This document shows positions 38,523-43,986 of a stretch of DNA of 64,000 nt, piece by piece (positions within the stretch are counted from its first letter, which is position 1; each line of letters begins with the position of its first letter). A program made the position numbers and the translations under genes. The notes beneath the pieces are model-generated. The model made no database searches. It saw only the letters and a list, made by a program, of their open reading frames with translations, and was not told where the DNA came from. Source of the DNA: Acidimicrobiales bacterium (GTDB lineage: Bacteria; Actinomycetota; Acidimicrobiia; Acidimicrobiales; MedAcidi-G1); the NCBI GenBank assembly GCA_022452035.1, contig JAKURV010000007.1, positions 1-64,000 of the forward strand. Reading direction: 5' to 3'.

Positions 38523-38549
38523 CCGTCGGGCTCAGCACCGTCGGGCTCA
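38522..38549. repeat. Tandem 13-bp repeat between maf and the fetB-like gene
   Basis: ACCGTCGGGCTCA occurs at 38522-38534 and 38537-38549 with two bases between. The second copy can also pair ACCGT with ACGGT just downstream. It bridges two convergent genes and includes the stop codon of the permease gene, so it may work as a bidirectional terminator. Confidence 0.45.
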
Positions 38550-39320
38550 AACGGTCGGCGGAACCAGCCGCTGATCGTCGGTGAGGAAGACCCGCACCCC
38601 GAAGAACACCACAACCAGGCCGGTCACGGCGGCCGTGCCCAGGATCAGGAACAGGAGTGCCGCCTGAACCAGGGCCGCTTGGATCGGATCGACACCAGCC
38701 AGGATCAGACCGGTCAGGGCGCCGGGCAGGAACACCACACCCACCGACCGGGTGGTCTCGATCTGGGGGAGGAGGGCCAAGCGAAGGGCGTCGGAGGCAA
38801 CGTCGCGCACGGCCCACGCTGGCCGGAACCCCAAGGCCAGCAGTGCCTCCACCTCTCCGACCCGGTCCCGAAGGCCGTCGACCAACCGGGTAGCCGCTAC
38901 GACCACAACCTTCAGCGAGTTGCCGACCACCATCCCTGACACCGGGACCAGCACCCGGGCCTCCAGGGGCAAGATCCCTAGGGCGAACACGGTGGCCAGC
39001 GAAACGCCGAGGCCCAGGGAGGCGCCCACAGCAGTCATCCACCCCAGGCCGGCCAGACGGGGTTCCCGCCTTCGGGCGGCGTCGCCTGCCACCGGGACCA
39101 TTGCCACCACCCAGGCCCACGCCCAGACCATCGGCGTGTCGCCGTCCAGCAGGAGAGTGAGGGCCCATCCAGCGAGCACCAGTTGGGCAACAGCCCGCAC
39201 CGTGGCCTCGGCCAGCGAGCGTTCTAGGCCGAGGCGACGCCGCAACGAGATGCCGGCCACGACAACCATCGGGACAATCGACGCCGCCAGCCCCCACCAG
39301 CCGATGTCAACCCCAGTCAC
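38547..39320 (-). CDS. FetB-like (UPF0014) ABC transporter permease
   Basis: This 257-residue polytopic membrane protein has about seven hydrophobic helices and the UPF0014 hallmarks SLRRRLGLERSLAEATVRAVAQL, read in blocks SLRRRLGLERSL and TVRAVAQL, then VVGNSLKVV and the cytoplasmic loop VEALLALGFRPAWAV. E. coli FetB with FetA exports iron. No FetA ATPase is adjacent. The GTG start at 39320 is chosen because TACCGT lies 6 bases upstream. A GTG nine codons earlier is the alternative. It is divergent from the Fe3+ importer genes, pointing to metal homeostasis. Confidence 0.85.
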   Translation of the reverse strand: MTGVDIGWWGLAASIVPMVVVAGISLRRRLGLERSLAEATVRAVAQLVLAGWALTLLLDGDTPMVWAWAWVVAMVPVAGDAARRREPRLAGLGWMTAVGASLGLGVSLATVFALGILPLEARVLVPVSGMVVGNSLKVVVVAATRLVDGLRDRVGEVEALLALGFRPAWAVRDVASDALRLALLPQIETTRSVGVVFLPGALTGLILAGVDPIQAALVQAALLFLILGTAAVTGLVVVFFGVRVFLTDDQRLVPPTV

Positions 39321-39326
39321 GTTCGC

Positions 39327-39332
39327 ACGGTA
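39327..39332 (-). promoter_or_regulatory. -10 element of fetB-like gene
   Basis: On the minus strand TACCGT precedes the GTG at 39320 by 6 bases. Confidence 0.45.
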
Positions 39333-39390
39333 GCCAGCCGAGGACACCGTGCCGGACGATCCCGCCTGTGGGCTGTGGTCCGACCCGACC

Positions 39391-39403
39391 TAGCCTGTTA
39401 GGC
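39391..39403 (+). promoter_or_regulatory. -10 element and overlapping dyad of fbpC
   Basis: TAGCCT (39391-39396) lies exactly 7 bases before the ATG at 39404. GCCT-GTT-AGGC (39393-39403) is a dyad spanning the -10 box and the presumed start site, a good position for a repressor, possibly the DtxR-family protein of this locus. Confidence 0.5.
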
Positions 39404-40453
39404 ATGCTGAACAAGCGGACGGCTGTCCCCCGGGCCACAGCCGAGGGCCTCACGGTGGCCGACCTCTCGGTGGCCTATGACGGGCCAACGGTCCTCGACG
39501 ACGTCTCGCTCGAGGTGGCGGCCGGTGAGGTGGTAGCGCTCCTCGGACCCAGCGGCTGTGGCAAGACCACCCTCCTGCGGACCATCGCCGGGCTGGAACG
39601 CCAGCGGACCGGAACGGTCCTCCTCGGCAACCGGGTCCTCAGCGACGACCAGACATTCGTCCCGCCAGAACGGCGGCGAATCGGAATGGTGTTCCAGGAC
39701 GGCGCCCTGTTCCCCCACCTCAACGTGGGCCAGAACGTGGCCTACGGCCTCCCGCGGTCAGAGCGCCGCTCCGACCGGGTGGTCGAGGCCTTGGAGATGG
39801 TCGGATTGACCGGCCTGGACCGGCGGATGCCCGGATCGCTGTCCGGGGGTCAGCAGCAGAGGGTTGCCCTAGCCCGTGCCCTGGCTCCACGCCCCGGCGT
39901 ACTGCTCCTGGACGAACCGTTCTCTGGCCTGGACTCCTCCCTTCGGGTCCAGGTTCGGGGGGAGATCTACCGCCTCTTGGTGGAGTTAGGCATCACTACG
40001 GTCTTTGTCACCCATGATCAGGAAGAGGCGTTCGTCCTCGGCGACCGAGTGGCCGTACTCAACGACGGCCGCCTGGCCCAGGTGGGAACCCCCGACGAGT
40101 TATACCGCCACCCGGTGGACCGGTGGGTGGCCCGCTTCGTAGGCGACGCCAACCTTCTCCCGGTGCCCTCGGCCGTCGGAATCTGTGCGACCCCAGTGGG
40201 TGACGTGCCGGTGTCACGTGACGTGGACGGGCCAGCCGAGCTGCTGCTGCGGCCCGAGGACATCCGGGTGGCCAGCGGTGGAGACGGCACCGTCGAGCTG
40301 GTGGAGTACTACGGCCACGACGCAATGGTCCTGGTCCGGCTCCACGACGGCATATTCATCCAGGCGCGCACTGAGCCCGACGTGGCATTCCAGCGTGGGG
40401 ACCAGGTGGATGTGACATATGTCGGCCCTGGAGCGGTAGCTCTCGACGTTTGA
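39404..40453 (+). CDS. fbpC: Fe3+ ABC transporter ATP-binding protein
   Basis: This 349-residue protein has the ABC ATPase core: Walker A GPSGCGKT (48-55), Q-loop VFQDGALFPHL, signature LSGGQQQRVALARAL, Walker B VLLLDEPFSGLD and the His switch THDQEEAF. The C-terminal TOBE-like region continues with LLRPEDIRV and VEYYGHDAMV, a layout typical of FbpC/PotA importers. It would energise FbpB. The gene comes first in an fbpC-fbpA-fbpB order, with an 82-base gap before fbpA that has its own control signals. Confidence 0.93.
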   Translation: MLNKRTAVPRATAEGLTVADLSVAYDGPTVLDDVSLEVAAGEVVALLGPSGCGKTTLLRTIAGLERQRTGTVLLGNRVLSDDQTFVPPERRRIGMVFQDGALFPHLNVGQNVAYGLPRSERRSDRVVEALEMVGLTGLDRRMPGSLSGGQQQRVALARALAPRPGVLLLDEPFSGLDSSLRVQVRGEIYRLLVELGITTVFVTHDQEEAFVLGDRVAVLNDGRLAQVGTPDELYRHPVDRWVARFVGDANLLPVPSAVGICATPVGDVPVSRDVDGPAELLLRPEDIRVASGGDGTVELVEYYGHDAMVLVRLHDGIFIQARTEPDVAFQRGDQVDVTYVGPGAVALDV

Positions 40454-40472
40454 TTCCCGAATTGCTCTTGTT

Positions 40473-40502
40473 AGGTTCCCCTCACAATCTGTTAGGGAAC
40501 CT
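40473..40502. promoter_or_regulatory. Inverted repeat before fbpA (iron-box candidate)
   Basis: AGGTTCCC (40473-40480) and GGGAACCT (40495-40502) form a perfect inverted repeat with 8-base arms and a 14-base spacer. Each arm is preceded by TT or TTA, giving TTAGG at 40471 and 40492, like the half-sites of DtxR/IdeR boxes. The region is more AT-rich than its surroundings. It could be an iron-responsive operator or, less likely, an mRNA hairpin. Confidence 0.5.
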
Positions 40503-40535
40503 TTACACATCGAGCCAAAGGACGGGATCTTACCC

Positions 40536-41573
40536 ATGGACCAGCGAACCCCAAGACAACCAAGCCGCATAGCGGCCGCCCTCCTATTAGTTCTTGGGCT
40601 CACCGCAATGCTCACAGCATGCGGGAGCGACGATCCCGAGTCGTTGACCGTTTACTCGGGTCGAAGTGAGAAATTGGTAGGCCCGATCTTTGAGGCATTC
40701 ACCGCAGACACGGGCATCGCCCTAGACGTTCGCTACGGCTCGTCGAATGACCTGGCCCTTCTCCTATCTGAGGAAGGAACCAAGACCCCGGCTGATGTGT
40801 TCTTGTCCCGAAGCCCCGGTCCCGCTGGGTATCTAGATGATCTAGGCATGTTGGCAAAACTGGACGACGACGTATTGGACCGCGTGGCGGCTACTGATCG
40901 ATCTCCCACCGGCACCTGGGTTGGGTTCGCCGGGCGAGGAAGGGTTCTTGTCTACAACGTGGACGAGGTGGCGACCGGAGACCTTCCCGGCTCGGTCTTC
41001 GACCTGACCGGCCCTGAGTACGCAGGCAGAGTTGCCGTACCAGGCAGCAACTCCTCATTCCAGGACTGGTTCACGCTGTTCCGGCTCCGCAACGGTGACA
41101 ACGTTGCCACCGGATGGCTGAACGACATGGTGGCTAACGGGTCCCGCTTCTACCCGAAGAACGGTGCCATCGTGGAAGCTGTGGGCCGCAACGAGATCCA
41201 GTTTGGGCTCGTGAACCACTACTACAACTTCCAGAAGGTGGCCGCGAACGGGGACGCCCAGCGGTCGGCCAACCACGGTTTCGCCCCCGGGGATGACGGT
41301 GGTCTGATGATCATCGCTACGGCAGCTGTACTGAATGAGAGCAACGAACAGGATGGCGCCAATCGCCTGCTCACCCACCTGCTCAGCGACGAACAGCAGC
41401 GGTACTTGACCGACAGCGTCTACGAATACCCACTGGCCCTCGGCGTGGCTCCGGCTGACGTCTTGCCACCGGCTCCCGTCGACCGGATAGGCGCCGTCGA
41501 CATCGACGACATAGCTGCCGAGTTCACTCGCACGATCGAGATCATCGAGGCGAGCGGCGTACTCGATCAGTGA
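40536..41573 (+). CDS. fbpA: Fe3+ ABC transporter substrate-binding lipoprotein
   Basis: This 345-residue protein starts with a lipoprotein signal (LLLVLGLTAMLTACG, lipobox Cys C29) and belongs to the ferric-iron-binding FbpA/FutA class of solute-binding proteins. LTVYSGRSEKLVGPIFEAF, VFLSRSPGPAGYLDDLG and the tyrosine-containing NHYYNFQKVAA segment fit the iron-site region of this family. It would sit on the outer face of the membrane and hand Fe3+ to FbpB. The codons near the start are slightly more AT-rich than neighbouring genes. Confidence 0.92.
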   Translation: MDQRTPRQPSRIAAALLLVLGLTAMLTACGSDDPESLTVYSGRSEKLVGPIFEAFTADTGIALDVRYGSSNDLALLLSEEGTKTPADVFLSRSPGPAGYLDDLGMLAKLDDDVLDRVAATDRSPTGTWVGFAGRGRVLVYNVDEVATGDLPGSVFDLTGPEYAGRVAVPGSNSSFQDWFTLFRLRNGDNVATGWLNDMVANGSRFYPKNGAIVEAVGRNEIQFGLVNHYYNFQKVAANGDAQRSANHGFAPGDDGGLMIIATAAVLNESNEQDGANRLLTHLLSDEQQRYLTDSVYEYPLALGVAPADVLPPAPVDRIGAVDIDDIAAEFTRTIEIIEASGVLDQ

Positions 41574-41632: not shown

Positions 41633-43285
41633 ATGACGGACATCACCAAGGTTCCACGAACAGGGGCTGCTCGACGCCGGGCGGGCGTCGGGCGGCCCCC
41701 GAAACCACTTCTGGGGACGGCGATCCTCATTGCCGCCTTGTTCGCCCTTCCCGGCGGGTATGTGGCTTGGCGAGCGGCCGGCGGTTCGGAATCTCCGCTG
41801 GCTCTCCTCGGATCCCGCCAGACCCTTGATCCCCTCTGGCGGACCGTTCAACTGGCCGCTCTCGTCTCTGTCTCAACCGCTCTACTGGGCACCGGGCTGG
41901 CCTGGCTAACCACCCGGACGGACCTGCCGTTGCGCCGCCTCTGGCGAGTCGTCGTCCCCCTGCCGCTCGTTTACCCCAGCTTCGTAGGTGCCGCGGCATT
42001 TATCTCCGGTCTTACTCCCGGCGGCGTGGTCCATGACTTGGCTGGAGTATTCGGCATTGAGCTAACTATTCGCCTCCACGGCCTGGTTGGGTCGTGGCTG
42101 GTCCTCACCCTCTTTACCTACCCCTACGTGTACCTTCCGGTGGCGGCCCGGCTGACCACCCTCTCCACCGCCTTCGAAGAGAACGCCCGCCTACTTGGCG
42201 ACGGACCCCGCCGGGTATTTCTCCGCGTCGTCCTCCCTCAGGTGGGGCCATCAATTGCCGCCGGCTCGCTACTGGTGTTTCTCTACACCCTCAGCGATTT
42301 CGGCGCTGTACACCTCATGCGGTTCGAGACTCTCACCCAGACCATCTTCCGCACCCGCCTCTTCGACCGGGACAGGTCGTTCGCTCTGGCCCTGCTCCTC
42401 TTGGTCCTGGCCCTTCTGGTCGTGGCCGCCGAGCGCACGGTGGCCCGTTCCGGAACCCGCAGGGGTGCTCGGGTCAGTGCTATCGGCGACCGCCAGTCTC
42501 TCGTCGTTCCCCTGGGCCGGTGGAAAGCGGCCTGCACCGCGGCCACGGCCGTCGTCGTTGGACTGGCCTTGGTGGCTCCCGCCGTGTCGCTAGCCGACTG
42601 GGGCCTCTTCGGATGGTTCAGATCCCGTCGCGGCGCCGCCGGGCTCCGACTGGACTGGGACGACGTGGTAGCGCCGACGTGGAACACCATCTGGGTGAGC
42701 ACGGTGACGGCCGTGGTGGCCGTGGCCGTAGTCCTTCCCGTGGCGTACCTCCTAGCTCGCCACCGCTCCCGTGTGGGTGGCGTGGTCAACGCCGTGGTGG
42801 TAGCAGGTTTCGCCATCCCAGGCCTGGTGGTCGCCCTGTCCATGGTCTTTTGGACTCTGCACGCTTCGCCATTCGAGTTCCTAATCGGCTCGATGCCCGT
42901 GCTGGTATTCGCCTACGTGGTGCACTTCGGGGCCCAGGCCGTCCGGACGACCCAGGTGGCCGTCGAAGCCGTCCCCCTCCGCATGGAGGACGCGGCCCGC
43001 CTACTGGGTGCTGGCCGACTACGCCGGCTAGCCACCGTCGAACTTCCGCTCATGGCACCCGGCCTGGCCGCCGGCGCTGGATTGGTCATGCTGTCCACCA
43101 TGAAGGAGTTACCGGCCACGCTGCTGGCCTCACCGATCGGCTTTCGGACTCTGGCCACCCAGATCTGGAACACCTACGAGGCGCTGTTTCTCCCCGAGAT
43201 GGCCGTCTTGGCACTGGTCCTGCTGGCCATCAGCGCCACCATGACTTGGTTGCTCGTCATACGCCGAAGCGAGCACCTGCGTTAA
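41633..43285 (+). CDS. fbpB: Fe3+ ABC transporter permease
   Basis: This 550-residue membrane protein is the fused double permease of an Fbp-type importer. It has roughly twelve hydrophobic helices in two halves, each with an EAA loop: FEENARLLGDGPRRVFLRVVLP and MEDAARLLGAGRLRRLATVELP, read as the conserved EEx-x-x-L-G cores. It works with FbpA and FbpC at the inner membrane. The ATG at 41633 is 59 bases after the fbpA stop. It ends 22 bases before the convergent DtxR-family gene. Confidence 0.92.
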   Translation: MTDITKVPRTGAARRRAGVGRPPKPLLGTAILIAALFALPGGYVAWRAAGGSESPLALLGSRQTLDPLWRTVQLAALVSVSTALLGTGLAWLTTRTDLPLRRLWRVVVPLPLVYPSFVGAAAFISGLTPGGVVHDLAGVFGIELTIRLHGLVGSWLVLTLFTYPYVYLPVAARLTTLSTAFEENARLLGDGPRRVFLRVVLPQVGPSIAAGSLLVFLYTLSDFGAVHLMRFETLTQTIFRTRLFDRDRSFALALLLLVLALLVVAAERTVARSGTRRGARVSAIGDRQSLVVPLGRWKAACTAATAVVVGLALVAPAVSLADWGLFGWFRSRRGAAGLRLDWDDVVAPTWNTIWVSTVTAVVAVAVVLPVAYLLARHRSRVGGVVNAVVVAGFAIPGLVVALSMVFWTLHASPFEFLIGSMPVLVFAYVVHFGAQAVRTTQVAVEAVPLRMEDAARLLGAGRLRRLATVELPLMAPGLAAGAGLVMLSTMKELPATLLASPIGFRTLATQIWNTYEALFLPEMAVLALVLLAISATMTWLLVIRRSEHLR

Positions 43286-43307: not shown

Positions 43308-43973
43308 TCAACGTGTTGTGACCAGGATGCGGTCGGCGGCGAAGGACCCGACGTCCACTCGTCGGCCAGCGATCTCCACGGTGATCGTTCCCTCATCAGC
43401 CGACCTCACCCGACCCATCTCACCGGGCATCAGGCTGGAGTCCTCCAAGAACTGCAGCAGACCGTCGGCGAACTCCAACTCTTCGGGAATGCGGTTCACC
43501 GTAAAGGACTCACCCACGGCGACATCGGCTAGGTGGCGGGTGTCAGGCTCCCGGTAGGAACTTCCGGGGATGGGATTTCCATGGGGGCAGGTCGTCGGAC
43601 TCCCTAGAAGGCGGTTCAGGGCGTCCTCTACGGACGGAGAGATGACGTGCTCCCACTTGCCGGCCTCATGGTGGGCTTCGGTCCACGTCAGGCCCAGGAC
43701 ATCGGTTAGGAACCGCTCGGCCAGGCGGTGCCGACGGACCACCGAGGAAGCCAGGTCCCGACCATCAGCGGTCAGCGAAATCCCCTCCGCGTCGCTGGTG
43801 ACTAGGCCTTCCTTCTCCATGCGCTTGATCATCTCGGAGACGGCCGGACGGCTGACCTCGAGCCGTTCGGCGATCCGAGCCTGGATCACTTCTAGATCAT
43901 CCTCGGCGAGTTCGAAGATCGTCTCGCAGTACTCCTCGAAGGCCGGGTGGTATTCGGGCGCCTGGTATGGCAT
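43308..43973 (-). CDS. DtxR-family metal-dependent transcriptional regulator
   Basis: This 221-residue protein has the DtxR/IdeR winged HTH (ARIAERLEVSRPAVSEMIKRM), the dimerisation and metal domain (RRHRLAERFLTDVLGL, then WEHVISPSVEDALNRLLGSP) and the HGNPIPG segment, followed by a C-terminal FeoA/SH3-like domain. Aligned by eye with IdeR, the ancillary-site ligands H82, E86 and H101 are kept. In the primary site E108 and H109 are kept, but the Met10 position is E14 and the Cys102 position is G105, closer to MntR-type sites. TACAAT lies 7 bases before the ATG at 43973. It probably represses the neighbouring transporter genes. Confidence 0.92.
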   Translation of the reverse strand: MPYQAPEYHPAFEEYCETIFELAEDDLEVIQARIAERLEVSRPAVSEMIKRMEKEGLVTSDAEGISLTADGRDLASSVVRRHRLAERFLTDVLGLTWTEAHHEAGKWEHVISPSVEDALNRLLGSPTTCPHGNPIPGSSYREPDTRHLADVAVGESFTVNRIPEELEFADGLLQFLEDSSLMPGEMGRVRSADEGTITVEIAGRRVDVGSFAADRILVTTR

Positions 43974-43980
43974 GCCGACG

Positions 43981-43986
43981 ATTGTA
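43981..43986 (-). promoter_or_regulatory. -10 element of dtxR-like gene
   Basis: On the minus strand TACAAT, a near-perfect -10 box, precedes the ATG at 43973 by 7 bases. This supports a leaderless start at that ATG rather than the open frame extending to 44036. Confidence 0.6.

Follow-up and report, generated by a model that had tools for sequence, protein, structure and literature searches.

The gene fbpA, which encodes the ferric-iron-binding protein of an ABC transporter, is preceded in the window (the whole stretch of 64,000 nucleotides analyzed here) by two tandem palindromic boxes, GTTAGGTTCCCCTCAC (box 1, 40470-40485, forward strand) and GTTAGGGAACCTTTAC (box 2, 40491-40506, forward strand), the second of which begins 21 bp after the first. 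Most probably, judging from their sequence and setting, the two boxes are single-dimer sites of the DtxR type that together form the fbpA operator, at which metal-loaded DtxR-type dimers would shut off ferric-iron uptake. The boxes, their conservation, their spacing, the -10-like hexamer within box 1 and the linkage of the operator to a regulator gene were computed. The mechanism that we infer from them, which comprises binding, repression, promoter use and the sensed metal, would operate as follows. Given enough of the sensed metal (most likely Fe2+) inside the cell, the dimeric DtxR-type protein encoded at 43308-43973 would be metal-loaded and would bind box 1, over the -10 hexamer, and box 2, just downstream of it. 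The bound dimers would exclude RNA polymerase and ferric-iron uptake would stop; when the metal becomes scarce, the repressor would leave and fbpA-fbpB would be transcribed.

The transporter genes are all located on the forward strand: fbpC (39404-40453), encoding an ABC transporter ATPase with a TOBE_2 domain; fbpA (40536-41573), the product of which has ferric-iron-binding proteins as its best PDB matches (E 2.7e-63); and fbpB (41633-43285), encoding a fused ABC permease with two stretches matching PF00528. Convergent to fbpB, on the reverse strand (43308-43973), lies the gene for a DtxR-type metalloregulator with HTH, dimerisation and FeoA domains. Divergent to fbpC, on the reverse strand (38547-39347), is a gene for a homologue of the UPF0014/FetB-like iron-efflux permeases (116 bits, far under the NCBIfam FetB cut-off), and the genes for import and possible efflux have an intergenic region in common. 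The host is probably an uncultured, marine actinobacterium; the records of eleven relatives are of metagenome-assembled (MAG) or single-cell origin, with sample names such as ALOHA that suggest the sea.

The preliminary description of this DNA had drawn attention to a perfect 8-base inverted repeat with an N14 loop and TTAGG beginnings in the gap between fbpC and fbpA. This repeat, AGGTTCCC (40473-40480)-N14-GGGAACCT (40495-40502), forward strand, is indeed present in the 82-bp gap at 40473-40502, as is TTAGG at 40471 and 40492. By itself such a repeat is unremarkable and proves nothing, because similar ones are common by chance: at loop lengths of 0-30 the window holds 127 perfect inverted repeats of 8 bp, where ten shuffled versions gave 64-91, and at a loop length of exactly 14 it holds three, where they gave 0-5. 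One of eight close relatives, L005, has the repeat in perfect form; in the other seven it carries 1 to 5 mismatches (three in L006, two of them at N). Being common by chance and imperfect in seven of the eight close relatives, it was rejected as the recognition unit. It is a by-product of the two boxes, its left arm belonging to the left part of box 1 and its right arm to the right part of box 2, and its limits as a unit cut through both conserved boxes.

Conservation was assessed in a family set of 48 genomes, 35 of which (own genome included) contain an FbpA relative. The best 30 of 37 family matches were read as FbpA loci; L001 is the window, 29 loci have upstream DNA (L013 is without it), and L014 was excluded from box counts owing to an N in the site. 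The family loci share a 16-bp palindrome of the type GTTAGG-N4-CCTAAC upstream of fbpA, to which box 1 has one mismatch. When the 150 bp before fbpA were searched at up to two mismatches with the published half-site consensus TTAGGN4CCTAA, which is independent of the present data, matches were found in 27/29 family loci (against 1.5 predicted by dinucleotide shuffling), in 12/17 loci of other families, the best-scoring of order-wide searches (0.8 expected), in 0/30 control stretches inside fbpA and in 2/29 at -550 to -400; since many of the loci are akin, these conservation counts are not counts of independent events. The window boxes themselves have one and two mismatches to this consensus.

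Regarding the 80 half sites of the family, position 1 is always C (80), position 2 is C (55) or T (25), position 3 is always T (80), position 4 is A (56), T (17), C (4) or G (3), position 5 is A (79) or C (1), and position 6 is C (67), T (12) or N (1). The clade model GTWARGN4CYTWAC, derived from these counts, was found at up to one mismatch in 28/29 family loci (150 bp searched) and in none of 186 control stretches, each 150 bp long. In the other-family loci, where 200 bp were searched, it was found in 16/17 (every match inside 150 bp; the miss, L135, has two mismatches), a comparison that is not blind, the model having been fixed after the other-family sequences were known. What is kept before fbpA in relatives is thus the boxes and not the perfect repeat. 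The same search of the 64-kb window yielded three sites (0.2 expected), namely both boxes and a site at the fbpC start, and box 2 is the sole exact match to the clade model in its own genome.

The motif is special in its location, not in its genome-wide number. Over the 48 genomes, 42 sites of the strict motif compare with 41 of the reversed control, and at two mismatches the own genome has 20 matches versus 41, so that neither search shows enrichment; the genome-wide count was rejected as proof of a regulon for want of enrichment over the reversed control. As to location, 27 of the 42 strict sites are found in the 700 bp that precede fbpA, four others no more than 8 kb from fbpA and 11 elsewhere. 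One strict site is found in G009 between the low-iron-inducible gene Fea1 and a gene for an fbpC-like ATPase, and another in G008 upstream of Fea1. The 48 family genomes contain seven Fea1 genes, and a site with at most one mismatch was found near two of them (G008, G009) and in none of the available flanking DNA of the other five; the contigs of L168 and L169 begin at Fea1, with almost no upstream DNA. Because only two of the seven genes have a site, control of Fea1 by the boxes is not general. No Fea1 match was found in the own genome. The Fea1-like genes of L169, L170 and L171 each contain one in-frame TGA in the matched stretch.

The spacing between the starts of the two boxes is exactly 21 bp in all nine closest loci (L001-L009); each of these has both boxes, while the intervening and flanking sequences differ. 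The other 20 family loci with upstream DNA comprise 17 with a single box and three with two; in the near-identical L022-L024 the two boxes are 23 bp apart. L025 and L027-L030 belong to the genus of the window, yet have one box. Since the starts are 21 bp, or two helical turns, apart, two bound dimers would share one face of the helix. The full 19-bp IdeR box with its four CCTAA repeats, TTAGGTTAGSCTAACCTAA, was rejected as a description of these sites. The window boxes have seven and eight mismatches to it, and the 40 boxes compared have 2 to 10 (35/40 have 5 to 9; L024 is best with two); the second site of the classical box, offset by 5 bp, is not conserved here. The boxes very probably are what had been proposed of the repeat, a variant iron box of the DtxR-type protein at 43308, distinct from the IdeR box by these seven and eight mismatches.

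A promoter of its own for fbpA, situated at the boxes, is very probable. All 24 loci of the main fbpA type have TANNNT at positions 3-8 of the first box (in the window TAGGTT, 40472-40477, forward strand, the putative -10), and a hexamer starting with TTG lies 16-18 bp upstream of it in 21/24 loci, compared with 13 of 504 five-position windows of background. In the window this putative -35 is TTGATT (40450-40455, forward strand), at a spacing of 16 bp from TAGGTT. Among the nine closest loci, the equivalent hexamer of box 2 departs from TANNNT in eight and contains an N in the remaining one. It is therefore very probable that the fbpA -10 is contained in box 1 and that the initial bases of the transcript are covered by box 2. 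A simple sigma-70 scan called no promoter at the fbpA boxes. In the second fbpA type (L027-L030), TANNNT is found at the box position in only one of four loci; there, TAGCACTCGCTACACT occurs at a fixed distance after the single box (one base different in L029) and may hold the -10 of the second-type fbpA promoter.

The promoter and the single-box loci also bear on the idea that the repeat serves as an RNA hairpin, either as terminator of fbpC or as attenuator of fbpA, which we consider very improbable. Folding was computed for the window, L002, L003, L004, L007, L008 and L009. The window (z -3.4) and likewise L003 (z -5.8) fold better than their shuffles, but L002, L004, L007, L008 and L009 stay within 2 sd of theirs (z -0.2 to -1.7), and no terminator was called here on the forward strand. 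The pairing of the outer arms follows from the presence of two palindromic boxes, the 17 single-box loci are without a second arm, and a -10 within box 1 would leave the left arm outside the fbpA mRNA.

A possible weaker operator, GTTAGGCATGCTGAAC (39397-39412, forward strand), lies over the start codon of fbpC (ATG at 39404) and is directly preceded by a -10-like TAGCCT (39391-39396). The pattern TANNNT-GTTAGG-N-[AG]TG-N-TGAAC spans the fbpC start in 22 of the 25 loci with fbpC, and in the right half of the site position 3 does not agree with the model, nor does position 1 in many of the loci. From this arrangement the fbpC mRNA would seem to be leaderless, a GTTAGG half operator being placed between the -10 and the start codon. 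The remaining three loci (the near-identical L022-L024) have a good box, GGTAGGTATACCTAAC, 28 bp before fbpC. Because fbpC has either the GTTAGG element or an upstream box, it is probably under related control of its own, as fbpA would be, with less certainty than for fbpA. The earlier view that fbpA is controlled separately from fbpC is thus right in part, the control of the two genes being probably related. At the start of dtxR (43971-43986, reverse strand), a -10-like TACAAT ends 7 nt before the ATG, and this mRNA looks leaderless too.

The regulator at 43308-43973 is the single PF02742 match in the own genome (96% complete). A dtxR homologue is located 1.6-3.3 kb downstream of fbpA on the opposite strand in 32 of the 35 family genomes in which both genes occur; the other three have them on different contigs. 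In at least 34 genomes of other families, chosen by eye among the matches listed, fbpA and dtxR are 0.1-7.3 kb apart. That the boxes bind another regulator, for example a Fur-family protein, is hardly credible given this linkage and the fact that the motif is the DtxR/IdeR half site. The genome does encode a Fur-family protein (G000 contig 3, 37792-38091; L173), but apart from the fbp locus, on another contig.

The order-wide search for DtxR yielded some match in 262/297 genomes, and the 48 best-scoring loci were examined, comprising 30 of the family (own genome included; of 41 matches) and 18 of other families. In an alignment with IdeR, the recognition helix reads SRPAVSE instead of SGPTVSQ in 48/48 of these loci, with the DNA-contact changes Thr40 to Ala and Gln43 to Glu in every one. 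The two sulphur ligands of the primary metal site of IdeR were not found in any of the 48 loci: Met10 is replaced by Glu and Cys102 by Gly throughout. Equivalents of His79, Glu83, His98, Glu105 and His106 are present in all 48, and those of Glu83, His98 and His106 we take to be metal-site residues in IdeR. Glu105 and His79 are IdeR metal ligands as well, and the sulphur ligands increase its selectivity for Fe2+ (PMC10317159). MntR has Asp or Asn at the place of Met10 and Glu at that of Cys102 (PMC10317159), a combination found in none of the 48 loci, all of which have Glu and Gly, and the lineage fits neither the IdeR nor the MntR ligand rule as read from the alignment. A match of the Thr40-to-Ala change with the change from C to T at half-site position 2 (25/80) was tried and is not relied on, because IdeR, with Thr40, tolerates T at this position with a mild loss only and its Gln43Ala variant shows normal binding (PMC8464063).

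Because Met10 and Cys102 are both replaced, the sensed metal is uncertain. The same operator and regulator might respond to Mn2+ (or to Mn and Fe), in the manner of an MntR placed over a ferric transporter. The acidic residue in place of Met10 and the loss of Cys102 in all 48 loci recall the Asp/Asn and Glu of MntR (PMC10317159), and the manganese sensors SloR and MntR bind adjacent, non-overlapping sites cooperatively (PMC12096823, PMC11275975). Manganese is nevertheless unlikely: the MntR residue at the place of Cys102 is not glycine, the transporter targeted is of the ferric-iron-binding type, and a site lies beside the low-iron-inducible Fea1 gene in two genomes. In addition, among the NCBIfam models the iron DtxR model scored best, at 161.9 bits, and the highest-scoring MntR model reached 113.1 bits; each score is below the cut-off of its model. 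The sites adjacent to Fea1 and the type of FbpA speak for iron.

A wider proposal, on which we remain tentative and for which the balance falls slightly to the negative side, is that these loci represent a DtxR branch extending across several families of one actinobacterial order, in which the primary metal site (Glu/Gly) and the recognition helix (SRPAVSE) were remade, control was reduced almost to a single ferric transporter, and the operators became single-dimer sites within the -10; in certain lineages a second such site, 21 bp from the first, would make the response sharper. The metal choice of this regulator lineage is not readable from the textbook ligands. A limited literature search by titles and abstract openings found no paper on DtxR operators of Acidimicrobiia. 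In work of 2021, TTAGGN4CCTAA was proposed as an IdeR unit whose function was left open, and its authors asked whether half sites exist in other species and what their role is (PMC8464063, PMC10317159). The present loci offer a concrete, testable case for the half-site question, since by conservation a half site would serve here as operator of an iron transporter of uncultured actinobacteria.

The closest known counterpart is the IdeR half site upstream of nuo in Saccharopolyspora erythraea (S. erythraea), with the same 14-bp palindrome and 4-bp spacer and one dimer expected per site (PMC8464063). For the IdeR of S. erythraea, the apparent KD is 78 nM with a designed half site, which is bound by one dimer, and 102 nM with the natural site of nuo (PMC8464063). 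The nuo half site precedes complex I genes, whereas the present one precedes a ferric-iron transporter gene and lies over a -10-like hexamer; unlike the nuo site, it occurs twice, at a distance of 21 bp, in the nine closest loci, and its half site is relaxed to CYTWAC. The classical 19-bp DtxR/IdeR box shares with the fbpA boxes the CCTAA repeats, the overlap with the -10 and an iron-uptake target, and IdeR boxes of repressed genes overlap the -10 or the start site (PMC10317159, PMC8464063). The classical box, however, takes up two dimers at overlapping sites on opposite faces, whereas the sites found here do not overlap. In this respect the fbpA boxes resemble the tandem operators of MntR and SloR (Bacillus subtilis mneP and Streptococcus mutans mntH), which are single-dimer sites arranged side by side (PMC11275975, PMC12096823); cooperative binding is described for these and is putative at the fbpA boxes. 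The 18-bp sites of mneP are 1 bp apart, which corresponds to a 19-bp period, and serve manganese (PMC11275975), whereas the fbpA boxes have a 21-bp period and a TTAGG/CCTAA core and precede a gene of a ferric transporter.
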